Part shown: in pieces, positions 12,245 through 27,995 of the stretch
Layout of the letters: the number at the start of each line of letters is the position of its first letter
How positions within the stretch are numbered: the first letter of the stretch is position 1
Source: Allomuricauda sp.
Lineage (GTDB): Bacteria > Bacteroidota > Bacteroidia > Flavobacteriales > Flavobacteriaceae
Reading direction: 5' to 3'
DNA length: 64,000 bases
NCBI GenBank assembly: GCA_003712125.1
Contig: RHLF01000002.1
Coordinates: 62,001-126,000, forward strand
Program-made: the position numbers and the translations under genes
The notes under the pieces: model-generated
What the model was told of the DNA's origin: nothing
The model's input: only the letters and a program-made list of their open reading frames with translations
Databases searched by the model: none

Positions 12245-12976
12245 TTAACTGTTCAGAAAAGATAAGACTTTCATCAAATCTTGTTCTCCCTTGATTTTAA
12301 GTTTATTTTCCTTGAGAAAAGATGATAAACTAGCCTTTTTATCTTCTGAAATGACATTCAAGACTTTTTTATTGTTGAGTTCCACTTGGTCGATTCTTTT
12401 ACCATCGGGCCCTTCCAAATAATATTCAACAAACTGAATAAACTTTGCTGGTTTGCCCTTCACGAATGAATTTTCCGCTTTTTTGGCTTCCTTGAAAACA
12501 ACGTCGATGTGCTTGTATAATTTATAATCTCCATCAGATAAAAGGGTCAAATACCCATTTTGGGTATTGCCTTGACTATCGACAAAGGTCTTAAAGCTCA
12601 TGCTTTCGCCATTGGCCACAAGTCTGATTTTTTTGTCTTTGCCCAATCCTCGGATTGGTTCTCCCTCTAGGTTCTGTTGCTTTATCTCAATCTCTTCGTT
12701 GTAGGCATTGTAACGGAAGTAAATATTCCCGACCTGCTCATCGCCATAGTATAGCTGACCTTTGCTAAAGGTATTGTCCATATAAGGTGAGCCTTCAATG
12801 GATTCGATTGAATAATCCAACTTTTCCAGCTTGTCACCAATCGCTCCCATAGCATGGTTGTAAAGGCCGTCAGTATTGCCAACATTTGAACTGTATTGGG
12901 CCACTTGCCCCGAAGTTTGTGCTGAAAGGGCATAGCTAAAAAGGGCACACAGTGCCAATAAACCTGTTTTTTTCAT
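12245..12976 (-). CDS. Secreted protein, paralogue family member 1
   Basis: A 243-residue secreted protein with a signal peptide ending SYALSAQ. It belongs with the genes at 13104 and 26193 to one family in this window: all share a G-x-YY-x-(D/E) strand, RY(N/D)AYN(E/D)E(I/V)EI, an NGYL or RGYL strand, a Tyr-Lys-rich segment (YKLYKHIDVVFKEAK), an EYYLE motif and a C-terminal helix with KENKLKI and DLMKVLSFLN. Family function unknown; the spacing of motifs suggests a single beta-rich domain with a helical end. It has its own terminator. No catalytic pattern is visible. Confidence 0.7.
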   Translation of the reverse strand: MKKTGLLALCALFSYALSAQTSGQVAQYSSNVGNTDGLYNHAMGAIGDKLEKLDYSIESIEGSPYMDNTFSKGQLYYGDEQVGNIYFRYNAYNEEIEIKQQNLEGEPIRGLGKDKKIRLVANGESMSFKTFVDSQGNTQNGYLTLLSDGDYKLYKHIDVVFKEAKKAENSFVKGKPAKFIQFVEYYLEGPDGKRIDQVELNNKKVLNVISEDKKASLSSFLKENKLKIKGEQDLMKVLSFLNS

Positions 12977-13103: not shown

Positions 13104-13841
13104 TTATTTGTTTAGAAACGCCAATGCTTTAAAAACATCACTTTCTTTATTGATCTTGATTTTATTCTCTTTTAAATAAAGTTTCAAGGCTTCCCTTTGG
13201 TCAACATCAACAAGTCTAAGTAGTTTTCGATTGCTTAGCTCCAATTCATCAATTCGATTTCTGCCATCCATCTCCAAATAGTATTCGGTAAACTTGGAAA
13301 AACGTGGAGGCGTTGCTTTTACAAAAGAATTCATAGCTTTTTGACCTTGGGTATACTTTACATCGTAACGTTTGTAGAAAGAATACTTGCCATCAACCAA
13401 TTTGGTCAAATACCCGTTTTGGGTCAATCCCTTTTTATCAATAAAGGTGCTAAAGCTAAACGATTTGCCGTCAGCCGTAATCAAATTCACGGCTTTGTCA
13501 CGGGTCAAACCGCGAACCGGTGCCCCATCGAAATCAACATCTTTCACCTCAATTTCTTCGGCGTAGGCATTGTATCTGTAAAATACTGTCGATTGAAACT
13601 CATCCTTGTAATATAATTTACCAGGTAAAAAGTTATCCGTGGTATACGCTGATCCCTGAATGTCGCTATCGCCTAAGGTTCTTTTTTCGTCACCGGATTT
13701 GATATCTCCCAAAAGGTAACCAACCAAGTCATTGTTTGCGCCACCGGCACTCATCTGGTTGTTCGCCAGCTGCCCTGAGGTCTGTGCATTCGCCGATGCG
13801 ATTGATAATACAAAACTGAATAATAGCAAATAATTTCTCAT
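13104..13841 (-). CDS. Secreted protein, paralogue family member 2
   Basis: A 245-residue secreted protein, tandem paralogue of the gene at 12245. The signal peptide ends SIASANAQ, and both mature proteins begin with the same TSGQ(V/L)A sequence. Shared blocks include FRYNAY or FYRYNAYAEEIEVK, QNGYLTKLVDGKYSFYKR, NSFVKATPPRFSKFTEYYLE, LELSNRKLLRLVDVDQ and YLKENKIKINKESDVFKALAFLNK. I do not know a function. The start at 13841 (MRNYLLLF) is preferred over 13865 because it begins the signal peptide and an exact -7 box sits 21 nt upstream. Separate terminators show that the two paralogues are independently transcribed. Confidence 0.7.
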   Translation of the reverse strand: MRNYLLLFSFVLSIASANAQTSGQLANNQMSAGGANNDLVGYLLGDIKSGDEKRTLGDSDIQGSAYTTDNFLPGKLYYKDEFQSTVFYRYNAYAEEIEVKDVDFDGAPVRGLTRDKAVNLITADGKSFSFSTFIDKKGLTQNGYLTKLVDGKYSFYKRYDVKYTQGQKAMNSFVKATPPRFSKFTEYYLEMDGRNRIDELELSNRKLLRLVDVDQREALKLYLKENKIKINKESDVFKALAFLNK

Positions 13842-13862
13842 AACTTCTTTAATAATAGGTCG

Positions 13863-13870
13863 CAAATCTA
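13863..13870 (-). promoter_or_regulatory. Promoter -7 box for paralogue 2
   Basis: On the minus strand TAGATTTG matches TAnnTTTG exactly and lies 21 nt before the ATG at 13841. A TTTG lies 27 bp upstream (13898-13901), farther than usual for the -33 element. Confidence 0.5.
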
Positions 13871-13975: not shown

Positions 13976-15310
13976 TTAAAATTGTAGCCCAAGGTTAACG
14001 ATGGCCTCAGAATCCCGGTCATAATGGTATCCTCTCCAAAAGAAGCCTTGCGTTGTGTACCGCCAAACCACCTCTCCGGCTTCCGTTACCTCCCAATATC
14101 CAAAATCGCCTTCAGCAATCAATCTATTGCCATTGGGGAGGAGCACAACCCCAGAGACACGTCCGGAGTACAATTCAGGGTCTGTAAAGCTCCATACTTC
14201 TTGCGGTTCGTTGTCAGTCGCTGGGCTTAGTAATAAATTTTCAGGAAGGCGAAATTCATAAGCCGTCGATTGCTCGGCTGAAAAACCATTGGCAAAGACC
14301 AAAATGTTACCTGCTTTTTCTCCAGATAACAGGTTGGGATGATGGTTGCGATCAAATCGTCTAACACCCATGGTGTTGTCATAGGCTTCAGGATTGCCAA
14401 AACGGTATACCAAATCGCCCCCTTTTCCAAAATTTCCACCGGCACCGGTTTGCGCTTCCTCTGAGGTGGTGCTATGGTCAACAACCCATATTTCACTATA
14501 GAAATTGGCACTTATATAAATCAAATCATTTTCGGCATCATAAGCCAGGCCATTGGCGTGGCTTACGTCACCCTCATCATTGGGCACCTCTAAATAATTA
14601 ATATCGATCAACTGTGGATTGTCAGCAACGACACCAAAAGTGGCCTTGGTATCGTCAACATCTTGGATCAAATGATCCCACATGTGCCATTGCCATACAA
14701 TTTCATCGGTCGTCGGGTTGATTTCAAAAACCGCATCATAAATTACTTCGGTATCGGGCGTAAAACCTACTTCGTTACCTTCCTCAACCGTCTTTTTCTC
14801 CCAGGTAAGGAATAAAATGTTGCCATTGGGCAGTAGTTCAGCATCATGGTGGGCAATATGGTCAGCGCTTGAGTATTCATAACTCCAACTAAGCTCCCCG
14901 TTGGGTTGTATCAAGGCCAGAACTCCACCAAAACCACCAAGGGTAATTTCAGGTGTTTCTGATTCCAGATTGGCAAGAAGCTGCCCATTGGGTAAAAGAA
15001 AAACATCATTGCCCAATCGTTTGCCGTTTAGATTCCATTCGTACACCACCGTGGCCGCCTTATCCAGTAAATAAACTCTGTTGGCTGAGGCGTCATTGAC
15101 CAAAATCAAGCCGTCATAGACTTTTTCGGCATCAAATATTTCCAATCCTTCCGCAAGCACCGGGTCATCATCAGTACCGGAAGAACCATCATCGGTTTGA
15201 ATGACATCATCGTCGTTGAAGTTGGTGCCATCGTCATCACCACAAGAAAGCAAAATAGGGACACACAAAAAGAATAACAAAAACCGGTTAAAGCCGTTGT
15301 TGTATTTCAT
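13976..15310 (-). CDS. Arylsulfotransferase (ASST)-like lipoprotein
   Basis: A 444-residue lipoprotein: signal peptide with lipobox (PILLSC) and a mature N-terminus CGDDDGT followed by an Asp-rich linker, which fits surface exposure. The rest reads as a beta-propeller with repeated (L)LPNGN(I/L/R) turns and histidine motifs DHIAHHDAELLPNG, VSHANGLAYD and RNHHPNLL, as in the arylsulfotransferase family. Known ASST enzymes move sulfate from one phenol to another through a His intermediate; whether this one does is unproven. It lies 51 bp after the FG-GAP gene on the same strand and could be co-transcribed with it. Confidence 0.7.
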   Translation of the reverse strand: MKYNNGFNRFLLFFLCVPILLSCGDDDGTNFNDDDVIQTDDGSSGTDDDPVLAEGLEIFDAEKVYDGLILVNDASANRVYLLDKAATVVYEWNLNGKRLGNDVFLLPNGQLLANLESETPEITLGGFGGVLALIQPNGELSWSYEYSSADHIAHHDAELLPNGNILFLTWEKKTVEEGNEVGFTPDTEVIYDAVFEINPTTDEIVWQWHMWDHLIQDVDDTKATFGVVADNPQLIDINYLEVPNDEGDVSHANGLAYDAENDLIYISANFYSEIWVVDHSTTSEEAQTGAGGNFGKGGDLVYRFGNPEAYDNTMGVRRFDRNHHPNLLSGEKAGNILVFANGFSAEQSTAYEFRLPENLLLSPATDNEPQEVWSFTDPELYSGRVSGVVLLPNGNRLIAEGDFGYWEVTEAGEVVWRYTTQGFFWRGYHYDRDSEAIVNLGLQF

Positions 15311-15361
15311 AGCAAATATTTTAGCCAAGATTAGGCCTTTCTAGCTGCGAAAGGTACAAAA

Positions 15362-18300
15362 TCATTTTATTTGCTCATGTATAATGAGCGGCCCATCGTT
15401 CTGAGCGGCGATTAGAAGGGATTTCTTCCCCGATTCCACCCAATCTAAGTCTTTGATGTTTCCGTCAAGGAGAAGGCCTGATTTTAACTCAGGAAGGGTG
15501 TAGTAGCCATCTTTTCCGTTTGAAAGCAGTACCACTCCCGAATAGGCATCCAATCGCGGCGTTTCAACTTCAGTTTCGTAAATGTTTCCAGCCACGACGG
15601 CATCTTCATACCCATCTCCGTTCAGATCCTTGAATATCGCTTTTAAGGTGGGGAATAACTGTGCCTCAATGGGCAAATATCTTTTTACAAATACGCCATC
15701 ACCTTTATTGACTAAAATTAGTGATTGAAATTCGTTCACCTCACCTTCATAGCCCGAGTTGAGCTTTTCACCATAAATATCCACCAGTTTGGCATTGGCA
15801 AATTCGGAATAGGTCTCAAATTTTTGCTGGATAAAGGGCATTTGTTGTGACGAACATTCTCGTCCCCGAACCGGAACATATTCGCCATTGTATTGCTTGC
15901 TCAGTACAATATCAGGTGTGCCGTTGTCATCAAAGTCGTTGGCAAAGACTTTAAATGGTTTTTTTTCGCTGGCTTTAAATTTGATGTTCAGGCCTGCATT
16001 GCCTACAAGATAATCCGGTAGGCCGTCATTGTTGATATCAGTTTCCTGCACGGTAAACCACCATCCCTTGCTTTCAAGGAGTTCTTGATTTTGTAATAGC
16101 GAAAAGGAGCCCTTGTTGTTTGTGAAAAAACCGAGGCCACTCCATTCACCAACGGCTATAAAATCTGTCCATCCATCCGCATTGAAATCTGTCTTGATCA
16201 GCTGGTTAACCATGCCAAAGTTTTCCAAATCAGGGGCTTTGTCTTGGGTTACATTTTGTAATTCGCCTCCTTTGTTTTCCCAAAGGGTGGAAGCAGAAAA
16301 TTGAGGGTAGTTTTGGGGGATAATCCGATTTCCTACCAAAATATCCATATCACCATCCTTGTCAAAATCAAGTACATCAACTGATTTACCACTTTTTGGG
16401 CTCACGCTTAGTGCGCTAATGTCTGCTCTTTGAAATTGGCCCGTACCGTCATTCAAATAAAGACGATCTGCGTAAAGCGACGAATGTTCTGCAAATTCGT
16501 TGCCACCACTCACCACAAAAAGGTCTTGGTCATTATCATTGTCAAAGTCAAAGAAAACAGACTGCATATCCTCGTAGTTTTTGTCATTCACAAAAACGGG
16601 GATGGTTAATTTTCGGAATTTCCCATCATTTTGCTGTAGGAACAACCCACCACTTTGTCCAGAAGCACCACCCACATAAATATCATCAAGTCCGTCACCA
16701 TTTACATCACCTTTGGTGATAAAGGGCCCCAAAGAAGATTGTTTGTAAGGCAGTAGCACTTCTTTTTCAAAATCATCGTAAATATTCTCATTATGGTCAT
16801 AGGCCAAACCTAAAGCTGCGCTTTGTGTTCTGGTAAATAGTGAAGCCGGGCTATTTTGTTTTGGGTTTTCTGGGCTGATGGCATCGGTTTCGTCGAAGCT
16901 AACCAGGGTATTCACGCTGATATTATACTTTTCTTCAATTTTACCACTTGGCCATTTTACTTGAATGGTATCTATTGTTGAGACATTCCCCAATCCAAAA
17001 TGCCCAATATCTTCATGTGATGAACGATAGCCCCTGACTCTTCTTGCTTCTAAAAATTGTGATTTCCCCTGATACCTAATGGTAATTCGTGGGAACGATT
17101 CGGATAACACGCCTTTTGTTTCGACCTTAAGGTAGTTGCCTTTTCCGTTTTCAACAGTTAGGTTTTTGTACAAAAAGCAATTCTCGTCAATATTGTTGAC
17201 CACCAAATCTAAATCGCCATCATTATCAAAATCTGCTTGAGCCGCGCCATTACTAAACGAATAATCTGCAAGCCCCCAGTCTTTTCCCGTCTCATCGAAT
17301 TCTAGGTTGCCCTTATTTTGATACACAATGTTGGGCAACTTTTCCGAGGGCATAGATTCATAAAGTTGCTTTTTAATGGCAAGCGGAACCTGACCTTTGT
17401 ACTTCATTTTCGCTTCGAAAACCCGACGTTGTAAATCGTTGTCGAGCGCATACCTGCGATACCCATTGGTGATGTAAATATCCCTGTCGGTATCATGGTC
17501 AAAATCAGACATAAGTACAGACCAGCTCCAATCGGTATTTGCCATTGAAGTCGCTTGGGCTACATTACTGAATTTGTTGTCATCAAGGTTCAATTGCAAT
17601 GAATTGTACATATACTGGTGATGAAACCCTGCTTTGTTGACTAAATAATCAAATCGGCCAGTGTTCATTGACGCCATTAGGGTTTTAGATCGTATATGGT
17701 CGTTCGCAGCCATATCCAAAACAAAGATATCTTGCCGATTATCATTGTTGATGTCAGCAATGTCCATCCCCATGCCATAAAACGAAATATGGTTGGTGTA
17801 TTCTTTAACCCGATCGGTAAAGGTGCCGTCGTGATTATTGATGAACAGGCCATCAGGAATGTAATAATCACTGGCGATGTAAAAATCAAGCCAGCCATCA
17901 TTATTGATGTCAGAAACACTTACCCCCAAACCAAAAATGGGCCGTTCAACGCCAGCTGCCTTAGTGACATCCACAAACTTTCCGTCGTCATTGCGATACA
18001 AATGCGAACTGTTAAAGTATTTCGATTCCTCATTTTGCGCTACCATTTTGTAGAGGTTAATGGGGTCAAATCCGTAGAGTTCGTTCTCGTTCATGACAAG
18101 ACAGTCTAAATCACCGTCGTTGTCGAAATCAAAAAAAACAGACTGCGTACTGATACCCATGTCAGCAAGGCCATACAACTCAGCCATTTCCTTGAAGGTG
18201 CCATCGCTATTATTGATGTATAAAAGGTTTTTTCTTTGTGCGCGTTGTTTGGGCCCTCCTTGTGAAATATAGATATCAAGCCAACCGTCATTATTGATAT

Positions 18301-18739
18301 CCACGAAGGTTACCCCATTTGACCAACCTTTACCTTGGTTGATGTTCGCAATTTCAGAGGTATTTTCGAAGGCCAGATTGCCCTTATTGAGATACAGTTG
18401 GTTCTCCACCTGATTGCCACAAAAGAATATGTCTTGCAGCCCATCATTATTCAAATCAGCGACACCCACTCCGGCCCCGTTATAGAAGTAATCGTAGTTG
18501 AAGAGATTTTCTAAACTCGCAACATCTTCTTTGATGGTGTTTTCAAAATAAAGTTTACTGTGATTGGGCAGAATCCTTTCGAATATGGGAGTGTTTTTTG
18601 TTGTTGAGGACAAAGTAGAATTGTCTGGAGCTGATGGATCTGCACAGCTCAATATGCTCAGGCAAAGAAATACCAACAGGGTATTGGTTCTAAGATATTT
18701 TTTGAATCCCTGTATAACAATGAATGGGACGAAACTCAT
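15362..18739 (-). CDS. FG-GAP/VCBS repeat lipoprotein with ASPIC/UnbV domain (CRTAC1-like)
   Basis: A 1125-residue lipoprotein (lipobox LSILSC, mature start CADPSAPD). It carries many calcium-loop FG-GAP/VCBS repeats of the type D-(I/F/L)-(N/D)-N-D-G-x-x-D, which should build integrin-like beta-propellers, before and after an ASPIC/UnbV domain at about residues 533-606 (EARRVRGYRSSHED, VKWPSGKIEEKY). Proteins of this type are common next to SusC/SusD genes in Bacteroidota and are thought to bind ligands at the cell surface; no catalytic site is seen. A near-consensus -7 box (TACATTTA, minus strand, 18759-18766) precedes it, and a terminator separates it from the lipoprotein genes upstream. 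Confidence 0.85.
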   Translation of the reverse strand: MSFVPFIVIQGFKKYLRTNTLLVFLCLSILSCADPSAPDNSTLSSTTKNTPIFERILPNHSKLYFENTIKEDVASLENLFNYDYFYNGAGVGVADLNNDGLQDIFFCGNQVENQLYLNKGNLAFENTSEIANINQGKGWSNGVTFVDINNDGWLDIYISQGGPKQRAQRKNLLYINNSDGTFKEMAELYGLADMGISTQSVFFDFDNDGDLDCLVMNENELYGFDPINLYKMVAQNEESKYFNSSHLYRNDDGKFVDVTKAAGVERPIFGLGVSVSDINNDGWLDFYIASDYYIPDGLFINNHDGTFTDRVKEYTNHISFYGMGMDIADINNDNRQDIFVLDMAANDHIRSKTLMASMNTGRFDYLVNKAGFHHQYMYNSLQLNLDDNKFSNVAQATSMANTDWSWSVLMSDFDHDTDRDIYITNGYRRYALDNDLQRRVFEAKMKYKGQVPLAIKKQLYESMPSEKLPNIVYQNKGNLEFDETGKDWGLADYSFSNGAAQADFDNDGDLDLVVNNIDENCFLYKNLTVENGKGNYLKVETKGVLSESFPRITIRYQGKSQFLEARRVRGYRSSHEDIGHFGLGNVSTIDTIQVKWPSGKIEEKYNISVNTLVSFDETDAISPENPKQNSPASLFTRTQSAALGLAYDHNENIYDDFEKEVLLPYKQSSLGPFITKGDVNGDGLDDIYVGGASGQSGGLFLQQNDGKFRKLTIPVFVNDKNYEDMQSVFFDFDNDNDQDLFVVSGGNEFAEHSSLYADRLYLNDGTGQFQRADISALSVSPKSGKSVDVLDFDKDGDMDILVGNRIIPQNYPQFSASTLWENKGGELQNVTQDKAPDLENFGMVNQLIKTDFNADGWTDFIAVGEWSGLGFFTNNKGSFSLLQNQELLESKGWWFTVQETDINNDGLPDYLVGNAGLNIKFKASEKKPFKVFANDFDDNGTPDIVLSKQYNGEYVPVRGRECSSQQMPFIQQKFETYSEFANAKLVDIYGEKLNSGYEGEVNEFQSLILVNKGDGVFVKRYLPIEAQLFPTLKAIFKDLNGDGYEDAVVAGNIYETEVETPRLDAYSGVVLLSNGKDGYYTLPELKSGLLLDGNIKDLDWVESGKKSLLIAAQNDGPLIIHEQIK

Positions 18740-18872: not shown

Positions 18873-18905
18873 AAAAAGGCTGTCTCGTTAGAGACAGCCT
18901 TTTTT
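18873..18905 (-). terminator. Strong bidirectional-looking terminator
   Basis: A 14-bp perfect stem AAAAAGGCTGTCTC/GAGACAGCCTTTTT (18873-18886 and 18891-18904) with loop GTTA. On the minus strand it ends the lipoprotein gene at 18925, so the SusC/D transcription unit probably stops here and the FG-GAP gene is transcribed separately. Confidence 0.85.
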
Positions 18906-18924: not shown

Positions 18925-19857
18925 TTAGTCTTTACAAAAATCAATTGCAATCTCACCAGCAGCTGTTCCTGCAGCGATATCTGCAACAGTATTGCCATTA
19001 GGAGTAATAAGTTGGAATGACATCTCACCCCAGAAATCTCCCCTAAAATCGAATACAGCAGCTTCAGTTAGTCCAGCAGGTACATCGAATGTTGCAGTTC
19101 CCGCACTGGCACCATCGGTGCAATCGTAACCGGGTGCTTCGTAAGGTGTACAAAGTCCGATTTCGTAAACGGTACCATCACTCAAAGTGACAACCAAACC
19201 TGGTCCACCACCACCACTGGTAGTAGGTTGCCAGCCGTCTCCATAAGAATCCTGCATCTCTACTGTCCAAGTACCGGCAGTAGGAGGTTTTGGAGGACAA
19301 ACAACAACAGCAGCATAGGCAAAAGGCGAACTAAAATAAGAACCTGTCAAGGTACCTGAGTTGTCCGCTGCCGAATAGCGTCTGCCATCAGCCATTACAA
19401 TTTCGAATCGTACAGTGAACTGGTCAGAACCATCCACATCTGAATCAGCGATAGGTAGAACGCTAATCAATTCTGGAAGTGTAATGGTATACGTAAATCT
19501 TGGTAAACCAAACTCACCAATAGACATGCTTGCAACATCCAATGTTTCAGCCAATACCTCAGCAGTTGAGAGGTCAGTTCCTCCAGCCGCAATTGAGTTA
19601 TCAGCAAAAGCAACCCATACTTCAACGGATTGTGATAATGCACCACTTTCTTGGTCTTGTAGCTCTAGCTCGACCGAGAAATTGGAATCTGCACTACCAA
19701 TTGGAATTTCACTAGAAATTACATTTATAGTCCGCAATATGGCACCACGAGTTTCCTGCTCAACGATTTGATCGAAAACCTTGTCACCCTCTTCACAGCT
19801 CACCAAAACGATGAGGGATGTCAAAACCAAGCTGTAAAGTAATTTGATATTTTTCAT
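18925..19857 (-). CDS. SusC/D-linked lipoprotein A
   Basis: A 310-residue lipoprotein (lipobox VLVSC, Cys21). From the lipidated Cys onward 23 residues are identical to those of lipoprotein B at 19972, and similarity continues to about residue 190 (FSVELE, GEFGLPRFTY, YSAADNSGTLTGSYF). The C-terminal 120 residues differ completely: here there is a WTVEMQDSYGDGW domain with Gly-rich loops. It is in the place where SusE/SusF-type surface glycan-binding lipoproteins usually lie, downstream of SusC/D, so a ligand-binding role is inferred. A 114-bp gap with a hairpin separates it from B. Confidence 0.75.
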   Translation of the reverse strand: MKNIKLLYSLVLTSLIVLVSCEEGDKVFDQIVEQETRGAILRTINVISSEIPIGSADSNFSVELELQDQESGALSQSVEVWVAFADNSIAAGGTDLSTAEVLAETLDVASMSIGEFGLPRFTYTITLPELISVLPIADSDVDGSDQFTVRFEIVMADGRRYSAADNSGTLTGSYFSSPFAYAAVVVCPPKPPTAGTWTVEMQDSYGDGWQPTTSGGGGPGLVVTLSDGTVYEIGLCTPYEAPGYDCTDGASAGTATFDVPAGLTEAAVFDFRGDFWGEMSFQLITPNGNTVADIAAGTAAGEIAIDFCKD

Positions 19858-19931
19858 TTATATCTGTTTATGTTATGGAATCAAATCTATCATGAACACT
19901 GTTCAAATGAGATTTGAAAAACTTATTTCTA

Positions 19932-19957
19932 AAGGGCCCGTTGTTCAACGGGCCCTT
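19932..19957 (-). terminator. Hairpin between lipoproteins A and B
   Basis: A 12-bp perfect stem AAGGGCCCGTTG/CAACGGGCCCTT (19932-19943 and 19946-19957) with a 2-nt apex. The T-run on the minus strand is short, so it may be a partial terminator or a processing/stabilising hairpin that lowers expression of gene A relative to B, SusD and SusC. Confidence 0.6.
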
Positions 19958-19971
19958 GTTTTATAGCTATA

Positions 19972-20925
19972 CTATACCTTGGTTAAGGTAAATGTAACTT
20001 CAACAGGTCCACCACATGTTCCTTCGGTATCTTCCAAGAAGATAATTGTAAGTGAGGAATCATCGGTCGGATCGTATGTAGTAGTGTTCGGTGATGGATT
20101 GTAAATCAACGGAACACCAGCAGTACATTGTAGGCCTTGATCTTGCTCTGGAAGAACAACCACGGCACCACAGATCAAATCAAATTGGAATGTACGGTTA
20201 AACCCTCCAAATTGTGGATAGTTAACAGTCGCAATTTCCCTGATGGTTGTACCTACTTCTGAAATTTCAACATTTCCTTCCGTAAACACACCGCCACTAA
20301 ATACCCCTGGATTCGCTAAGCTCAAGTCAAATGTACCTGAGAAGGAAGCGGTAAGAGGGCAGATCACAGTTGGTGTATACAAAAACGGTGAATTGAAGTA
20401 TGAACCTGTTAGGGTACCTGAGTTATCGGCGGCAGAATACCTTCTGCCATCGCTCAATACCAATTCAAATCGAACAGTAAACTGATCACCACCAGTAATT
20501 TCACTGTCGTTTCTTCCGACAAAAGACAACATATCAGGCAATCCTACCATATACGTGAACCTTGGCAATCCAAATTCACCTACTGAAAAGGTTGAGCTTG
20601 ATACGGTCTCGAAAAGTGACTCGGCTACATTGGTACCAGGACCAATGTCTGCAGTATTATCGAGGAAACCAATATAAACTTCTACATCAGTAACCAAAGT
20701 ACCATTTTCCTGGTCTTGGATTTCCAATTCAACGCTAAAGTTACCTGAAGCGTCACCGATGGGCAGGTCATTTGAAATAAGGTTTGTGGTCCTTAAGATC
20801 GCCCCTCGGGTCTCTTGCTCTACTATTTGGTCGAAGACCTTGTCTCCTTCCTCACAGGCCCCAAGCACTAGCACAATGGCTAGTGCACTTAAGCCCATGA
20901 ATTTGTTCAACATCTTTTTCATCAT
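19972..20925 (-). CDS. SusC/D-linked lipoprotein B
   Basis: A 317-residue lipoprotein (lipobox VLGAC), paralogue of gene A in its first 190 or so residues. The C-terminal region is unrelated to that of A: a beta-rich segment with CGAVVVLPEQDQ, an Asp/Thr-rich linker and a final strand VEVTFTLTKV. The GTG at 20928 also opens the frame, but the ATG at 20925 directly precedes the basic signal-peptide start. It lies 8 bp after the SusD stop, so it is almost surely in the same operon. Likely a surface ligand-binding accessory of the SusC/D transporter; the ligand is unknown. Confidence 0.75.
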   Translation of the reverse strand: MMKKMLNKFMGLSALAIVLVLGACEEGDKVFDQIVEQETRGAILRTTNLISNDLPIGDASGNFSVELEIQDQENGTLVTDVEVYIGFLDNTADIGPGTNVAESLFETVSSSTFSVGEFGLPRFTYMVGLPDMLSFVGRNDSEITGGDQFTVRFELVLSDGRRYSAADNSGTLTGSYFNSPFLYTPTVICPLTASFSGTFDLSLANPGVFSGGVFTEGNVEISEVGTTIREIATVNYPQFGGFNRTFQFDLICGAVVVLPEQDQGLQCTAGVPLIYNPSPNTTTYDPTDDSSLTIIFLEDTEGTCGGPVEVTFTLTKV

Positions 20926-20933
20926 CACAGAAT

Positions 20934-22652
20934 TTAGTTAGCTGGTGGGAATGTCGGGCTAGCCGGATTCGTGTCCCAGAAAACTTGCGTTGTTAAATCC
21001 GTACGCTGTGTAAGGTTAGGATTGTTCAACACCTCGTTCTGTGGCAACAAGTATGTTCTTGGGAATGGTCCTGGATCTGGCTCCCAGTTAGGGAATACAG
21101 TTGTAGGATATCCCGTCTTTCTGTAATAGTTGTATGATTCGAACGCTCCACCATATAGCGTAGTGAAGTATTGCTCAGCAAAGATGTTCTCCTTGTCATC
21201 GCCAGTAGCAGCATCAAAATCAGCTACGATTCCATCGATGTAAGCAGTAACGTCAGCTGCAGAAGGCTCGAACGAAAGGTCAGCTGAACCATCCAATGCA
21301 CCAAAGCTCTGTACTTTAGCAATTGACTTCTCAAGACCTGCACGTAGTGCTGCTGATTTTTCAGCATCTGAAGTTGCCATCTCTCCAATCCAGAAATCCA
21401 CGTAGGAAGAAAGGAAAATAGGTGTGATACCTGCACCTCCACCACCTTGGCCTAGACCAACACCAGGAGCAACATTTACACCCGTAATTGGGTCAACAGC
21501 GTTGAACATGCTATCGTCAAAACGACCAGCTGTTGGGTAAACACCAGGAGCAGCTTTCAAGAATCCGTCTGGTGGTCCACCTTCATCGTTACCATGGCTT
21601 CTTCCCCAGTAACCGTTGTCTACACTACAGTAAACAAATCCGGCATAATGCGGGGGAGGAACGAACAACGAACAAGAAATAGTTTCTTCATTTGGAGGAA
21701 CTGGATTTCCGTTCACATCGTTAGCACCAGGCGTACCATCAGCTTGACGATAGAAATAGTAACGAATTCTAGGATCGTTGTTTTGTAACATCAAATCCAT
21801 CAACCAGTTTGAACGGTAAGGACCTGAACCAGTTGGTGTGTAGGCAGCCTCAAAAATAGGATGCCTGTCACTTGGCTGTAGTTCGCTAGTACCATATCCT
21901 AATTGGAAGTCATCAGCCTCAGAAGAAATATAATCTCCTCCAGCGATAATCGCGTCAAAAGCAGCTTTATTACCAGTGTTTTTGTATGAACGCAAACGCA
22001 TGGTATTGATCACTTTGATCCAAGCAGCGGTATCACCACCATAAAACATATCAGAAGCTCCTTGTAAACCAGGTCCTGAAGCCAATAAAGCCTCTGCTTC
22101 ACTCAACAGTCCAAAAGCGGCATTGTACACATCCTGTCCACTGTCTAAGGTTGGCGCTGGGAACTCAGCAGGGTTACCTGCTTGTGAGAATGCAGCCTCA
22201 CCCAACATATCCACTAACTGGAATAGTGAGTGCGCATACATGATTTTACCCAATGCAATGTGAAAGGAATAATCTGTATCACTCTCTGCATCAATCTGCT
22301 CAAGTGCTTGCAAGTTGGTCTGGATACCTACATTGACAAAGTCACCTGGTGTATTTCCACCAGAACTATAGGTTCTTGACCAAACGCCGTTAAGTTGGTT
22401 ACCTGGAAGGGCGTTGAAATAGTTCCTTCCAAAGAAATATTCAATACGTGTCAATTCTCCAACGTCTTCTGACAAGAAGTGTTGGTTTGATACATAGGCC
22501 AACTGCATTGAGTTCAGCAACAGATTAGGATCTGATTGCGTTGGCGAGAGCTGGTTCGGACTTACGGTCAAGTCCAAATCTGTCGTTTCACAACCGGTAA
22601 AAAGAGCGCCGGCCGCAAAAATCATCGTAATTCTTTTAAATATTCTATTCAT
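20934..22652 (-). CDS. SusD/RagB-family nutrient-binding lipoprotein
   Basis: A 572-residue SusD homologue of the SusD-like_2 type: lipobox ALFTGC (Cys21), then LDLTVSPNQLSPTQSDPNLLLN, which is the usual start of this group, tetratricopeptide-like helices (AHSLFQLVDMLGEAAF, INTMRLRSYKNTGNKAAFDAI) and a C-terminal SYNYYRKTGYPT segment. SusD proteins form the lid of the SusC channel at the cell surface and capture the nutrient. The family covers glycans and also peptides or other molecules. It is placed 23 bp after susC and 8 bp before lipoprotein B. Confidence 0.92.
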   Translation of the reverse strand: MNRIFKRITMIFAAGALFTGCETTDLDLTVSPNQLSPTQSDPNLLLNSMQLAYVSNQHFLSEDVGELTRIEYFFGRNYFNALPGNQLNGVWSRTYSSGGNTPGDFVNVGIQTNLQALEQIDAESDTDYSFHIALGKIMYAHSLFQLVDMLGEAAFSQAGNPAEFPAPTLDSGQDVYNAAFGLLSEAEALLASGPGLQGASDMFYGGDTAAWIKVINTMRLRSYKNTGNKAAFDAIIAGGDYISSEADDFQLGYGTSELQPSDRHPIFEAAYTPTGSGPYRSNWLMDLMLQNNDPRIRYYFYRQADGTPGANDVNGNPVPPNEETISCSLFVPPPHYAGFVYCSVDNGYWGRSHGNDEGGPPDGFLKAAPGVYPTAGRFDDSMFNAVDPITGVNVAPGVGLGQGGGGAGITPIFLSSYVDFWIGEMATSDAEKSAALRAGLEKSIAKVQSFGALDGSADLSFEPSAADVTAYIDGIVADFDAATGDDKENIFAEQYFTTLYGGAFESYNYYRKTGYPTTVFPNWEPDPGPFPRTYLLPQNEVLNNPNLTQRTDLTTQVFWDTNPASPTFPPAN

Positions 22653-22675: not shown

Positions 22676-25600
22676 TTAAAATGACGCTTTGATGCTGAAA
22701 CCATATCGTCTAGCACTTGGGCCGTTCAAGAAGTCGAAACCTTGACCGTTACCTACCCCGACACCCTGTACGTTAGGATCGAAGTTCGCACCATCAGGCG
22801 TGTTGTAAGCATCATACCAAAGATTGAATCCTTGTAATGTAAACGTCAAAGAACCGAAAGGAGTTCTGTCTAAGAACTTCTGAGGGAAGCTGTATGCCAA
22901 CGATACTTCCTGCAAACGAATTACAGACGCATCGTAAATTCTTGTTTCGGTTGGACCGAATAACAAGTTGCTAAAGAAATACGTAGAGTTGTTGATCTGC
23001 GTATTGTTTGGCGTACCATCAGCCTTCACACCAGGAAGAACGTAAGTTTGCAAACGATCTTGAGTCTCAACGATAAGACCCCTACCTAGCAAGGTAGCAA
23101 CCGTACTTGAAAGAATGTCACCACCTTTCGTATGGTTGATCTGGAAGTTCAAGTTCCAGTTCTTGTAACGGATGCTGTTGATGAAGTTCATCTGGTAATC
23201 AGCAATCGCATCACCTACGATTGGCACGTTACCGTCAGCATCTTGCTCAGCTACCTGGTAAGAACCAGCAGCATTCACAATAAAGTTACCGGCATCATCT
23301 CTTTGGATCGCTGTACCAACGATAGTACCAAGAGACTCACCTTTGATAGCTGCATTCGAACCTCTAAATAGACCACCACCTACTGCAAGAGAACCAGCGT
23401 AGAAAATCGCATCTTGTTCTTGCTCAGTTACTGTTACGTCATTGGTAAAGAAGTTCACTCTTGAATTCCAGCTGAAGTTTTCACTCTGGAAGATATCAAT
23501 ACCTAAATCAGCTTCGAAACCTTTGTTCTCGATCTCACCAATATTACTCTGAGTAGAGGTAAATCCGGTAGAAGGAGCTAAAGGCTCAGTCACGATCAAG
23601 TCATTGGTTGTCTTGAAGAAATAAGTTGCATCAAGGGAAATTCTGTTTTTCCAGAACTTCGATTCGATACCAAACTCAACTTCTTCCAAAAGCTCAGGTT
23701 TCAAATTAGGATTAGCCCTGAAACCAGCAACCTGGTTGGTAGTGATTGAAGTACCTGCTAGAGGATCGTTAAAGATCTGCGTGTTCTGCTCGGTAAATCC
23801 AACAGTAGGATAAGAAGCAGTAGTGTCAAAGTTTGCAGAAGTACCATAACTAGCTCTTACCTTCAAGAAGTTAATTCCGTTCTCAGACTTAAGTCCTGGG
23901 AAGGCATTGGTAGGCAAGAACGATACACTAGCACCTGGATAGGTGATGTTGTTGTTCGCTCTTTGGAAATTCGATACCCAGTCACGTCTTGCGCTTAGGT
24001 TAAAGAATAAGAAATCATCATAATCCAAAGTTGCCTGAGCTAAAAGACCTACAATGTTTCTTTCTCTTGTAAACTGCAAAGGAGTTTGGTTTTGGAAGTT
24101 AAAGTGTCTCTTAACTCCAAATACAATCTGTCCTGTACTTGAAACCCCGCTTCGGTCGAAAACGTCTGAACGGGCAGTAGCACCAGCAGTAAATGAAAGA
24201 CCCAATTTCTCAGAAAGGTCATAGTTACCATTGATAGAGATAAAGTGGTCCCAAATGGTATTGTTGTTATCATAAGTTTGCAAGAAACCAAATATTGCAG
24301 AGTTAAATGCAACACCACCTCTGTTCGAACTGTTGATGTTTCTTTCGTTGTAGAAATCAAGACCTGTTCTCCAGTTAAGACCTAGGTTCTCGTTGATTTC
24401 ATAATTCGCAGAAAGATTCCAGAAGAACCTGTTCGTTACCTGGTTGTATACAACGTTCTTGGCAGTCCAACGTGGGTTGATGATACTGTTGTTCTGACGA
24501 TAGTAAACGCTACCTCCTGTAATTGGATTCTCGAAAGGAAGCCCCATCAAGTCAACACTAAGAGGTGTAAAGAATACGTTACCATAAATCGAAAGACCAT
24601 CCGTACCGTTACCCCTACTTGAAGCAATCGGAGGAGTTTTCACATCTGACTTAGCGTAGTTCATTGTTCCACGGATAGTGAACTTGTTGCTCAATTTCGC
24701 AACACCACCCAAGGAGATGTTCAACCTGTCAAAAGTGTTTCCTGGAGTAAATCCATCATCGTTATAGTAACCAACGTTGGCGTTAAACGAAGTGTTTCCA
24801 TCCTGAGAAGTTCCTGCTACGTTTACGTTAGTATTGGTAGTGTAACCTGGCTGGAAGAAATTCTCCACTGAATCATAAGGTCTCCAATCGTAACGTGCAC
24901 CGGCGAACTCAGGGAAAGCCTGTGGAATTCCAGTTGCCGCAGAAGCAGTTGAATACGGGTGAGCCAAGGTTCCTTGGTCATCAATAGCTGATTGAGCTCC
25001 CCATCCTGCTGTACCGTCACGGTCAAAGCTAGGCCCCCAGTTACTGAAGAACCATCCAAAAGACTGGTCGAAACCGTTACCGTATTGCTTCTGATAGTTT
25101 GGCAATGAGGCGATTTCGTTGGCGAAGAACGATTGTGTAACCGTAATCTCCGTCTTCTTCGGTCCTGCAGCATTGGCTGCACCTGCTTTAGTAGTTATAA
25201 GGATAACCCCGTTACGTCCCTGCGTACCGTATAGTGTAGCAGCAGAAAGACCCTTAAGAACCTCGATACTCTCGATGTTGTTAGGATCTAAGTCCAAGAA
25301 TCTTGAACTTCCAGTGTTACCAGCAATAAAGCTACCCTGTTGGTTAGTGTCATTACTGAAAGGCACCCCATCAACGATGAACAAGGCTTGGTTGTTACCA
25401 CTGAACGAGTTCAGACCCCTGATCACAACGTTAGTTGCAGAACCAGCGGCACCACCTGCAGCGGTAATCTGTACCCCGGCAGCCTTACCGGCCAAGACCC
25501 TGGCAACGTCACCTTCTGCTCTGTCCTGGATTTCTTCCTGGCCTACAGAGGTAACGGCGTAACCTAGGGCTTTCTTTTCTCTTTTAATACCCTGGGCAGT

Positions 25601-25921
25601 TACGACCACCTCTTCAAGCGCCTGTGCATCCTCTTCCATTTGCACGTTCACCGTACTACCGGCACCGACCGTGCGTCTTTCATCCTTTTGGCCAATGTAG
25701 GAGAAAAGCAGAACCTGCCCCTCACTTGCCGAGATGGCATAGTTACCATCAAAATCTGTTTGTGTACCGCTTGACGTTCCTTCAACAACGATGTTTACAC
25801 CAGGTAGTGGCAAACCATTGCTGTCTGTAACCGTACCTGTAATCGTCTTGTCTTGTGCAAAAGAAAGATGCACAAAGAACGCCAATAACAGCGTTAACAA
25901 TCCATTAAGTTTTGTTCTCAT
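22676..25921 (-). CDS. SusC/RagA-family TonB-linked outer-membrane transporter
   Basis: A 1081-residue outer-membrane importer. In order: signal peptide (to about residue 22), a carboxypeptidase-regulatory-like beta-sandwich (TGTVTDSNGLPLPGVNIVVEGT), a TonB-box region (EEVVVTAQG), the plug domain with the SusC signature (NVVIRGLNSFSGNNQALFIVDGVPF, quoted in two parts here as NVVIRGLNSF and ALFIVDGVPF), and a long beta-barrel ending YGFSIKASF with C-terminal Phe. It imports nutrient caught by SusD using proton-motive force via TonB-ExbBD. Codon choice in sampled stretches is strongly biased to AAC, TAC, TTC and ATC, suggesting very high expression. The upstream 271-bp gap must hold its promoter. 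Confidence 0.95.
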   Translation of the reverse strand: MRTKLNGLLTLLLAFFVHLSFAQDKTITGTVTDSNGLPLPGVNIVVEGTSSGTQTDFDGNYAISASEGQVLLFSYIGQKDERRTVGAGSTVNVQMEEDAQALEEVVVTAQGIKREKKALGYAVTSVGQEEIQDRAEGDVARVLAGKAAGVQITAAGGAAGSATNVVIRGLNSFSGNNQALFIVDGVPFSNDTNQQGSFIAGNTGSSRFLDLDPNNIESIEVLKGLSAATLYGTQGRNGVILITTKAGAANAAGPKKTEITVTQSFFANEIASLPNYQKQYGNGFDQSFGWFFSNWGPSFDRDGTAGWGAQSAIDDQGTLAHPYSTASAATGIPQAFPEFAGARYDWRPYDSVENFFQPGYTTNTNVNVAGTSQDGNTSFNANVGYYNDDGFTPGNTFDRLNISLGGVAKLSNKFTIRGTMNYAKSDVKTPPIASSRGNGTDGLSIYGNVFFTPLSVDLMGLPFENPITGGSVYYRQNNSIINPRWTAKNVVYNQVTNRFFWNLSANYEINENLGLNWRTGLDFYNERNINSSNRGGVAFNSAIFGFLQTYDNNNTIWDHFISINGNYDLSEKLGLSFTAGATARSDVFDRSGVSSTGQIVFGVKRHFNFQNQTPLQFTRERNIVGLLAQATLDYDDFLFFNLSARRDWVSNFQRANNNITYPGASVSFLPTNAFPGLKSENGINFLKVRASYGTSANFDTTASYPTVGFTEQNTQIFNDPLAGTSITTNQVAGFRANPNLKPELLEEVEFGIESKFWKNRISLDATYFFKTTNDLIVTEPLAPSTGFTSTQSNIGEIENKGFEADLGIDIFQSENFSWNSRVNFFTNDVTVTEQEQDAIFYAGSLAVGGGLFRGSNAAIKGESLGTIVGTAIQRDDAGNFIVNAAGSYQVAEQDADGNVPIVGDAIADYQMNFINSIRYKNWNLNFQINHTKGGDILSSTVATLLGRGLIVETQDRLQTYVLPGVKADGTPNNTQINNSTYFFSNLLFGPTETRIYDASVIRLQEVSLAYSFPQKFLDRTPFGSLTFTLQGFNLWYDAYNTPDGANFDPNVQGVGVGNGQGFDFLNGPSARRYGFSIKASF

Positions 25922-26192
25922 TTTTAAATTATTTGAATTAGCTAGCCGCTAAAATCATAATTTCATGTTAATAATCCAAACTAATTTTAATAAAATTTCA
26001 CACTATGATAATATTATTGTCATGTTGATAAATTGCGAATCCTGCATTGATATTGGTGTAATTGGCAACGTATTTTTTTTCATTTTCTTAAAAATCAAAA
26101 ATATCCCGATTTAAAAGGACTTGTTTTTGCGAATGACATGTTCTAAGGAGGGAAAATCCATGTACTTTTAGGTTATATATATATTAAGGTAT
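25922..26192. promoter_or_regulatory. Divergent intergenic region, susC / paralogue 3
   Basis: The longest gap in the window (271 bp), very AT-rich, containing no ORF I can support. On the minus strand two candidate -7 boxes for susC are TTAGTTTG (25977-25984, one mismatch) and TATTTTTG (26096-26103, exact but in low-complexity sequence); neither has a good TTTG at -33. A 10-bp perfect palindrome ATAATATTAT lies at 26008-26017 and might be an operator, though AT-richness makes it weak evidence. The plus-strand promoter for the gene at 26193 is not clear. Confidence 0.35.
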
Positions 26193-26972
26193 ATGTTTCG
26201 TCCTTCATTTTTGTTTTTAACCATGACTATCTTTTTGATGGGTCCCTTGCATGCACAGGGCGAAGGTGGGGTTTTTACCCAATCAAGACTCGCAGCCTTA
26301 AAGACAGGTGAAGGTTCGTTGGGCAATAATCCGGCAGGAATCGAATGGTTCAATGAATTGCGACGGAAAACCGCTGCCCTCGGTCGTGAAAGTGAGGTGA
26401 AATTGGAAGATATTGAAGGTACGGTGTATCTCAATGAGCAGTTTGTTCAGGGCAAAGTATTTTACAATGATGCGTTTTATGAAAGTTTTATGCTGCGGTA
26501 TGATGCGTATAATGATGAGGTAGAAATTCAAAGGGGCAGTTCGAACAGTTTGGAGGCTTTACATAAAAGCCTTGCAATATCCTGTGAAATTTTAGGAGAT
26601 AGATTACGGTATATGGAGTACCTGGGAAAGAAGCAAGAAAGTAGAAGAGGATACCTTATTGTTTTGGTTGAGGGCCAATCGTATTCCTTATATAAAAGGT
26701 ATGCGAAAATTTTTAAAGAAGCTAAGCCCGCCAAAACATCACTGCAGGCATCCTTTCCGCATCGGTTTGTTGATGAAATTGAATACTATTTAAAGCAGGA
26801 GGGTAAAAATCCACGATACCTTAAGTTGAAAAAATCAAGTGTGCTTGAAATGTTAGCCAATGGCCCGAGTGAAAAAATCAAGCATTATATGAAGGCAAAC
26901 AAGATTGATTTGGGTAGCGAAGAACAATTGCTCCAATTGGTTTCGCATGCCAACACCATTTCCTCTCAATAA
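26193..26972 (+). CDS. Secreted protein, paralogue family member 3
   Basis: A 259-residue secreted protein with a signal peptide ending MGPLHAQ. It is the most diverged of three paralogues (others at 12245 and 13104), keeping GTVYLNEQFVQGKVFYND, LRYDAYNDEVEIQ, RGYLIVLVEGQSYSLYKRYAKIFKEAK (spanning two blocks), DEIEYYLKQEG and HYMKANKIDLGSEEQLLQLVSH. It lies head-to-head with susC, so that the SusC/D island has family members on both sides. Function unknown. Confidence 0.7.
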   Translation: MFRPSFLFLTMTIFLMGPLHAQGEGGVFTQSRLAALKTGEGSLGNNPAGIEWFNELRRKTAALGRESEVKLEDIEGTVYLNEQFVQGKVFYNDAFYESFMLRYDAYNDEVEIQRGSSNSLEALHKSLAISCEILGDRLRYMEYLGKKQESRRGYLIVLVEGQSYSLYKRYAKIFKEAKPAKTSLQASFPHRFVDEIEYYLKQEGKNPRYLKLKKSSVLEMLANGPSEKIKHYMKANKIDLGSEEQLLQLVSHANTISSQ

Positions 26973-27057
26973 TACAATTTGGTCGATGTATCGACTTAAC
27001 TTTGTCGCACCTTCTAGGGGTATCTTTTTGCCCAGGTCAAAAAATAATTTTTGACTA

Positions 27058-27088
27058 TTTGAATTATTCTCATTTATCACTACATTTG
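27058..27088 (+). promoter_or_regulatory. rpsL operon promoter
   Basis: A textbook Bacteroidota promoter: TTTG at 27058-27061, a 19-bp spacer, and TACATTTG at 27081-27088. Transcription should start near 27092-27096, at the base of the leader hairpin, about 40 nt before rpsL. Confidence 0.8.
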
Positions 27089-27091
27089 CAG

Positions 27092-27106
27092 CCCTCAAAA
27101 TGAGGG
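27092..27106 (+). promoter_or_regulatory. 5'-terminal hairpin of the rpsL leader
   Basis: Stem CCCTCA/TGAGGG (27092-27097 and 27101-27106) with loop AAA. It begins within a few bases of the expected transcript start. An analogous hairpin follows the promoter before rplC. It may protect the 5' end or take part in growth-rate control. Confidence 0.55.
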
Positions 27107-27131
27107 TTTATTTCATTTATAAAGAAATTTA

Positions 27132-27506
27132 ATGCCAACAATTTCACAATTAGTACGAAAAGGAAGGGCCACAATTACCAAGAAGAGTAAATCGGCTGCT
27201 TTGGATTCGTGCCCACAAAGGAGAGGGGTATGTACCCGTGTGTACACCACTACGCCAAAAAAACCAAACTCAGCCATGCGTAAAGTGGCAAGGGTAAGGT
27301 TGACCAATGGCAAAGAGGTGAATGCATATATTCCTGGTGAGGGCCACAACCTCCAAGAGCACTCGATAGTATTGGTTAGAGGCGGAAGGGTTAAAGATTT
27401 GCCAGGTGTTCGATACCATATTGTGCGAGGCGCACTTGATACAGCAGGTGTTGCCGGACGCACACAACGTAGATCGAAGTACGGTGCAAAACAGCCCAAA
27501 AAGTAA
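27132..27506 (+). CDS. rpsL: Ribosomal protein uS12
   Basis: 124 residues, the normal length. It lines the decoding centre of the 30S subunit. [11 protein letters not shown] and [13 protein letters not shown] carry the two lysines whose mutation confers streptomycin resistance in other bacteria, and both are the sensitive wild-type residue here. First gene of the supercluster, 6 bp before rpsG. Confidence 0.97.
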
Positions 27507-27512
27507 GAAACG

Positions 27513-27989
27513 ATGAGAAAAAGACAAGCAAAGAAAAGACCTTTGTTGCCAGATCCACGGTTTAATGACCAATTGGTAACGAGGTTTGTCAATATGATGA
27601 TGTGGGACGGTAAAAAATCCGTTGCCTTCAAAATCTTCTACGATGCCATAGATATTGTAGAAGAGAAAAAAACAGATGACGAAAAGACAGCGCTTGAAAT
27701 CTGGAAAGATGCGCTTTCAAATGTTATGCCGCACGTTGAGGTTCGTAGCCGAAGGGTTGGTGGTGCGACATTTCAAATTCCCATGCAAATTCGTCCCGAC
27801 AGGAAAATTTCAACGGCCATGAAATGGTTGATCAGTTTTGCTAGAAAGCGAAATGAAAAATCAATGGCCCAAAAGTTGGCTGCTGAAGTATTGGCAGCTG
27901 CCAAGGAGGAAGGTGCTGCCGTTAAGAAACGCGTCGACACGCACAAAATGGCCGAAGCCAATAAAGCATTCTCACACTTCAGATTTTAA
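27513..27989 (+). CDS. rpsG: Ribosomal protein uS7
   Basis: 158 residues with the basic N-terminus [10 protein letters not shown], the core [18 protein letters not shown] and the C-terminal FSHFRF. It nucleates the 30S head and contacts tRNA at the exit site. It is separated from fusA by only 6 bp, as in str operons generally. Confidence 0.97.
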
Positions 27990-27995
27990 TTGACA

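Follow-up and report, generated by a model that had tools for sequence, protein, structure and literature searches.

The window analysed here is a 64,000-nucleotide stretch of an Allomuricauda sp. contig in which two adjacent lipoprotein genes, A and B, lie behind a SusC-SusD pair; the gene order along the one strand is SusC, SusD and then B and A. The features referred to below are, in window positions:

22676-25921, minus strand: SusC/RagA homologue (TIGR04056), proposed partner
20934-22652, minus strand: SusD homologue (Pfam SusD-like_2), proposed partner
19972-20928, minus strand: lipoprotein B, with an N-domain as in A and a class 2 C-terminal module
20788-20856, minus strand: B, 23-residue block (mature residues 1-23)
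20383-20439, minus strand: B, second segment YSAADNSGTLTGSYFNSPF; pLDDT below 50 over mature residues 143-156
19975-20358, minus strand: B, C-terminal module, class 2 (33 of 87 C-terminal parts)
18925-19857, minus strand: lipoprotein A, 310 amino acids, with signal peptide, lipobox Cys21, N-domain and class 1 C-terminal module (GDGW type)
19729-19797, minus strand: A, 23-residue block (mature residues 1-23)
19747-19779, minus strand: A, locus-matched core, residues 27-37, VFDQIVEQETR (mature residues 7-17)
19321-19377, minus strand: A, second segment YSAADNSGTLTGSYFSSPF, residues 161-179; pLDDT below 50 over mature residues 145-157
18928-19296, minus strand: A, C-terminal module, class 1 (50 of 87 C-terminal parts)

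The open reading frame listing starts B at a GTG (20928), and ATG codons are present at 20925 and 20922. Neither A nor B had a match close to cut-off in Pfam or NCBIfam, and a third homologue of their N-domain is encoded in the source genome behind a second SusC-SusD pair. B and A are separated by a strong terminator-like hairpin (19932-19957; fold z -3.96, minus strand), which a consensus scan placed on the plus strand, and a second one lies downstream of A (18873-18904, z -6.89); given these hairpins, A may be transcribed apart from SusCD-B. On its other side, SusC is divergent from rpsL-rpsG-fusA (22676-30128). Three look-alike proteins of about 250 residues are also found around the locus (12245-12976 and 13104-13865, minus strand; 26193-26972, plus strand), the first two matching one query and the third being alike by eye.

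From the lipidated cysteine onwards A and B have the same 23 residues, CEEGDKVFDQIVEQETRGAILRT, the 24th being the first to differ (I in A, T in B). A codon-by-codon comparison (A from 19797 down to 19729, B from 20856 down to 20788) confirmed the count of the first-pass annotation, with six codons identical and 17 synonymous. Local codon usage would give 10.0 identical codons among the 23, so the silent sites look saturated, and the annotation's proposal that the duplication is old is supported. The annotation understated the homology, however, in limiting the similarity to this block. Blastp aligned A and B over 193 residues (114 identical, 59%; E 4e-79), a likeness which, judged from the alignment, is far beyond chance; what the two proteins have in common is part of the signal peptide and an N-domain of about 170 residues, within which a second identical run, DGRRYSAADNSGTLTGSYF, occurs near residues 157-175. 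Because the similarity continues in this way, the block reads as the opening of a shared N-terminal domain and not as an isolated conserved peptide.

The family was sampled by a search in which 115 of 397 genomes matched at E 1e-8; a second search, centred on another genome (G112), returned the same matching genomes and loci. Regions were fetched for part of the matching genomes, selected for a high place in the list and for tandem copies, and the resulting alignment holds 88 proteins from 74 loci. The second G112 copy (L065, whose block letters equal those of L064) and the partial L071 were left out of both the alignment and the pair counts, and L033, in which an N-domain match was absent at the cut-off used, is also outside the 88. 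That these genes are linked to SusC/SusD, as the annotation had proposed, held for 77 of the 88 proteins, A and B included, which lie behind SusD on the same strand (for one of the 77 SusC is cut off); the other 11 comprise four on short contigs that end first and seven orphans. Among the neighbouring genes, rpsL was within the fetched stretch at 31 of the 64 loci with SusC, and relatives of two minus-strand genes downstream of A, encoding an arylsulfotransferase-like protein (13976-15328) and a large FG-GAP/UnbV-ASPIC protein (15362-18739), were present at 21 and 31 of the 74 loci, respectively. Two N-domain matches within single open frames of about 450 residues were seen in one genome (L010/L018, G029) and in hits from G122 and G420.

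When the block was looked for across these other SusC/D-linked lipoproteins, the idea of strict conservation under extreme selection had to be rejected. The lipobox cysteine is present in 88 of 88 proteins and D25 in 67 of 88, acidic residues following the cysteine in A and B, and four positions of the block are near invariant (G38 in 88, L41 in 83, R42 in 84 and T43 in 83). However, mean conservation was 2.75 bits over the block (residues 21-43) and 2.26 bits over residues 27-37, as against 2.29 bits over residues 44-155. Of 148 windows with a width of 23 columns, 25 scored higher than the block. No more than 23 to 49% of 75 sequences agree on the commonest residue at positions 30 and 32-36. 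The core, residues 27-37, thus varies no less than the remainder of the domain, and the signal, as we read these alignments, is co-variation of both copies within one locus and not invariance.

This co-variation was followed in 12 tandem pairs, ten of which could be placed behind a common SusCD (the contigs of G429 and G431 end before reaching one); in one pair (G011) an arylsulfotransferase-like gene separates the two copies. Over residues 27-37 mean identity was 0.84 within a pair compared with 0.46 between orthologues and 0.46 in crosswise comparisons. In the source genome, for example, both A and B read DQIVEQETRG, and in G003 both read DEIQANVQRG. All 66 quartets of two pairs grouped by locus in this segment. 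Since many pairs are alike elsewhere too, we restricted the analysis to the 21 of 66 quartets in which the remaining domain groups the orthologues, the other 45 being uninformative, and found that: (i) residues 27-37 grouped by locus in 21 of these 21; (ii) of the 160 windows, each 11 columns wide, the ones that begin at residues 25-33 were alone in reaching 21 of 21, the best window beyond residue 43 giving 12 of 21; (iii) for the six pairs that combine a class 1 and a class 2 protein, residues 27-37 grouped by locus in 15 of 15 quartets and the rest of the domain in 0 of 15; and (iv) among the 720 possible reassignments of B to A copies in these six pairs, the observed identity was reached by the true assignment alone. 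The matching of protein letters by locus, and its confinement to particular segments, is a direct observation. A second segment, residues 161-179, behaves similarly, though less cleanly than the first: over residues 161-170 the informative quartets gave 12 by locus, one against and eight ties, and the quartets from the six class 1/class 2 pairs nine by locus, one against and five ties.

How far copies may be called orthologous was judged from a tree built on residues 44-155 and 180-190. It places together the second-gene copies of G003, the source genome, G112 and G375 (97/91) and the first-gene copies of G003, L030, the source genome and G375 (99/97); the second copies of L030 and G134 pair, the two copies of G428 are sisters (88/89), and G246 and G011 stand apart from the others. 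The first-gene and second-gene labels need four changes each on this tree, so orthology by position is secure for only some pairs. Among the three closest congeners, only position 33 is informative within residues 27-37; it is matched in two (A/A and S/S) and mismatched in the third (V in A, D in B).

The segments also relate to the importer encoded beside them. In the source genome, G003 and G112, the tandem pairs have identities of 0.91 over residues 27-37, 0.93 over residues 161-170 and 0.56 over residues 44-155, whereas comparison with the copy beside the second SusCD of the same genome (six comparisons) gave 0.26, 0.17 and 0.42; the two SusC proteins in each of these genomes are 0.61-0.63 identical. 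In G076, with two SusC proteins 0.50 identical, the values were 0.09 for residues 27-37 and 0.20 for residues 161-170, and in G103, with two adjacent units whose SusC proteins are 0.90 identical, they were 0.64 and 1.00. Adding these two genomes brings the mean for residues 27-37 to 0.28 over eight comparisons, G103 (0.64) being the exception. Copies beside a clearly different SusCD therefore carry other letters in the same cell, and since segment identity is low at SusC identities of 0.50-0.63 and high at 0.90, the pattern tracks the likeness of SusC and not the cell. Consistent with this, over 63 SusC-SusD-lipoprotein triples residues 27-37 gave a partial r of 0.28 with SusC distance and 0.04 with that of their own protein. 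This preference for SusC has an interval only just clear of zero in residues 27-37 (difference 0.23, bootstrap 0.01 to 0.46), is larger in residues 171-179 (0.37, 0.10 to 0.59), with residues 21-26 behaving likewise, and spans zero in residues 161-170 (0.11, -0.07 to 0.33); residues 44-58, 81-100 and 180-190 go in the opposite direction to 27-37. SusC and SusD distances are themselves correlated (r 0.91), which makes the two candidate partners inseparable, and a column scan of SusC and SusD for partner residues gave scores no higher than those of the control regions 44-58 and 116-130.

Some copies without an adjacent importer resemble, in the segments, a copy that has one. Three orphans match an SusCD-linked copy (L077/L078, L079/L080 and L136/L081) at 0.64-0.73 and 1.00 in the two segments compared with 0.44-0.52 elsewhere; in three others (L137, L138 and L139) such a match was absent (0.27-0.45 and 0.40). 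At E 1e-8 the SusD proteins of this type numbered one in G144, one in G338 and two in G230. In the last of these genomes two copies, one behind SusCD and the other with no SusCD in the fetched stretch, have N-domains that are identical in the compared regions (L081/L082).

We think it likely that residues 27-37 and 161-179 contact the SusC/SusD of their own locus, and that lipoproteins using that SusCD consequently keep the same letters. The annotation had suggested a docking peptide for SusC/SusD or for an export machine. Docking to the locus's own SusCD is the best explanation for locus-matched letters in residues 27-37, while a shared, cell-wide export machine is disfavoured for this segment because copies beside a second SusCD differ there in three genomes. 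Other explanations of the match have some evidence on their side, and we consider each of them improbable.

The first is that the two neighbouring genes exchange DNA by local gene conversion, which would keep their blocks alike and make the match an effect of DNA copying. The genes are indeed adjacent and similar, and identical residues share codons more often than expected over residues 44-155 (366 of 796 compared with 324.8 in the twelve pairs) and 156-179 (130 of 271 compared with 102.3). Within the block itself, however, same codons stand at the level that codon usage predicts (73 of 160 compared with 72.9 for eight pairs; 110 of 245 compared with 102.6 for all twelve), which argues that recent conversion does not account for the match; in four congeners, moreover, the two copies of a pair had a same-codon fraction of 0.44 over residues 21-43, and for orthologues of the three closest species the fraction was 0.68. 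Recent gene conversion, which the annotation had singled out as contrary evidence, is therefore without a signal in the block as a whole, but residues 27-37 of the four congeners do show an excess (21 of 40 compared with 14.8 expected, z 2.09), as do those of G112 (6 of 8 compared with 3.6). In the congeners' segment same codons are also raised crosswise (34 of 60) and between orthologues (43 of 60). A separate count for residues 156-179 (87 of 176 compared with 71.1) was likewise accompanied by raised values in orthologous and crosswise comparisons, and on these counts conversion appears less clearly excluded for the second segment than for the block. For distant pairs, a conversion event could also have predated the saturation of silent sites.

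A second explanation, to which we give about as little credence, is that the block does no more than signal surface export (an LES), to be recognised by one machine serving the whole cell. The published LES consensus is QKDDE at +2 to +6 in C. canimorsus, and SDDFE has been derived from F. johnsoniae SusD homologues. Positions +2 to +6 of A and B read E-E-G-D-K, mostly charged and different from that consensus, although the E-E-G-D of +2 to +5 is mostly acidic as the consensus is, and residues 22-26 may still be this known export signal. The LES ends at +6, however, and the windows able to split the loci in every one of the 21 quartets have their first residue between +5 and +13, around a core at +7 to +17; a signal read by one machine also sits poorly with a core identity of just 0.26 for copies beside the second SusCD in three genomes.

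The third, with similarly poor prospects, is that A and B touch each other through the segments, in a hetero-oligomer, and do not use them to contact SusCD. Matched tandem partners taken alone would give the same picture, and single copies could self-associate. Against this, 10 of 67 copies directly behind SusD have a second copy next in the fetched region, yet over 63 loci the distances of SusC account for the segment better than those of the protein that carries it. A structural segment that hardly changes, under ordinary strong purifying selection, is very improbable as an explanation unless the sampled pairs are untypical: some positions of the block hardly vary (G38, L41, R42 and T43), but conservation of the core does not exceed that of the remaining domain, and identity in the core is far lower between orthologues of the 12 genomes (0.46) than between same-locus paralogues (0.84).

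Structure predictions can be set beside docking to the locus's own SusCD. AF2 models of mature A and B, made from shallow alignments of 7 and 6 sequences, have a mean pLDDT of 71.1 and 68.3, and the N-domain is a beta-sandwich in both. pLDDT falls below 50 over mature residues 1-16 and 145-157 of A (also 191-197 and 218-226) and over 1-16 and 143-156 of B (also 70-73 and 181-194), and the first two stretches in each protein overlap the two locus-matched segments. Locus-matched segments without structure of their own are what one would expect if they fold upon binding a partner, a reading weakened by the shallow alignments. The best fold comparisons, to complement C3 (Z 9.1, rmsd 3.4 over 116 aligned residues; Z 9.2, rmsd 3.2 over 118), are generic, and Foldseek matches of A (transglutaminase, RbmA, complement C3 and others; query TM 0.21 to 0.35 among the 50 matches listed) were set aside as generic beta-sandwiches. 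Searched against solved chains at E up to 10, the N-domain profile gave nothing but a chance myosin match (E 1.1).

Behind the N-domain the two proteins part company, as the annotation had stated. A relation between their C-terminal parts (123 residues in A, 128 in B) was undetected by blastp (best E 1.7) and by profile-profile comparison (probability 1%; one comparison gave E 0.055 over 25 columns). The annotation's picture of swapped end domains is borne out across the family, in which the C-terminal parts fall into three classes (50, 33 and 4 of 87 proteins) with no links detected between them; in all 12 pairs the first gene belongs to class 2, and the second is class 1 in six, class 2 in three and class 3 in three. 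Such a distribution fits end domains being exchanged while the dock stays constant. The module of B, for which a Pfam match was absent, resembles in its class 2 model the C-terminal domains of 3n91, 3nqk and 4qni at a level near the usual background (Z 8.6, 7.2 and 7.2 over 113, 109 and 115 residues). All three are Bacteroides proteins, one of them titled an auxiliary nutrient binding protein, and the likeness to class 2 is weak. The C-terminal domains of 3n91 and 3nqk are of the DUF4361 type. That of 4qni has been labelled DUF4361 (PMC11216935).

The nearest named relatives of the locus, Muricauda among them, are Flavobacteriaceae, the family to which F. johnsoniae also belongs. In the SusCDE system of F. 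johnsoniae (Fjoh_0403-0405), made up as here of SusC, SusD and a surface lipoprotein, SusE is described as 'structurally unrelated' and co-purifies through SusC (PMC12611786), which shows that a lipoprotein encoded beside SusCD can co-purify with it. F. johnsoniae has a single SusE and the window two lipoproteins, the comparison with Fjoh_0405 being one of layout; the parts of that account drawn on here do not describe docking segments (PMC12611786). The nearest solved relative of the window SusC is BT_2264 (5fq6_B, E 8.8e-81), and the window SusD matches the BT_2263/BT_2264 SusCD of B. thetaiotaomicron (5fq6) at E 3e-6.

There is precedent for an Ig-like N-terminal domain resting on SusC. In the levan utilisome of B. 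thetaiotaomicron, the Ig-like N-terminal domains of the SGBP sit on the SusC lip and touch loop 1, with the C-terminal domain pointing outward (PMC7618045). This is a glycan system, likened to A and B by layout, and duplicated copies with matched tails do not figure in the parts of that paper used here (PMC7618045). The DUF1735 lipoproteins of polysaccharide utilisation loci are similar to A and B in having an Ig-like N-domain, varying C-terminal domains and the susE position (PMC11216935). Pfam DUF1735 had no match at E up to 1 in nine of nine N-domains or in full-length A and B, and a spacer role has been proposed for that domain (PMC11216935), whereas the evidence from A and B points to locus-specific docking. 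For the proposed contact itself, the precedent is BamH of the F. johnsoniae BAM complex, in which the groove of an outer-membrane barrel receives the lipidated N-terminal tail (PMC12611786); this barrel, BamG, is FadL-like and has another function, and no kinship of BamH to A and B is implied. Among the open-licence papers listed, judged by their titles and the starts of their abstracts, we found no description of matched docking segments of this kind.

Our working model is that A and B would be accessory surface lipoproteins, in the SusE position, of one SusCD outer-membrane importer. The acidic stretch after the lipidated cysteine would probably serve surface export and would be followed in order by an 11-residue tail (residues 27-37), the Ig-like beta-sandwich and an exchangeable C-terminal module. 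The tail, together with the loop at the end of the sandwich (residues 161-179), would be unstructured until bound to the SusC/SusD of its own locus. If the segments bind in this way, any lipoprotein using that SusCD must keep the same letters; as the importer changes both copies would change in parallel, and parallel change would leave identical protein over saturated silent sites. We infer from the sequences that the segments physically bind SusC or SusD, that A and B would share, and hence compete for, one site, and that ligands would be captured by the C-terminal modules.

Bacteroidota often have several SusCD importers and many surface lipoproteins. It is possible, and we put it forward more tentatively than the contact itself, that tail and loop form an address tag that pairs lipoproteins with one SusCD among several in the cell, unrelated sensor or capture modules being exchangeable and orphans docking in trans on that importer. 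If these ideas are correct, a SusE-position domain of the type now called a spacer (DUF1735; PMC11216935) may be worth inspecting for a docking role, and A and B may compete for one site per SusC. A short locus-matched segment would then provide a readable rule for the pairing of lipoproteins with importers, orphan lipoproteins could be assigned to importers from the letters of their segments, and matched proteins on scrambled codons would be an evolutionary signature for which other loci could be scanned.
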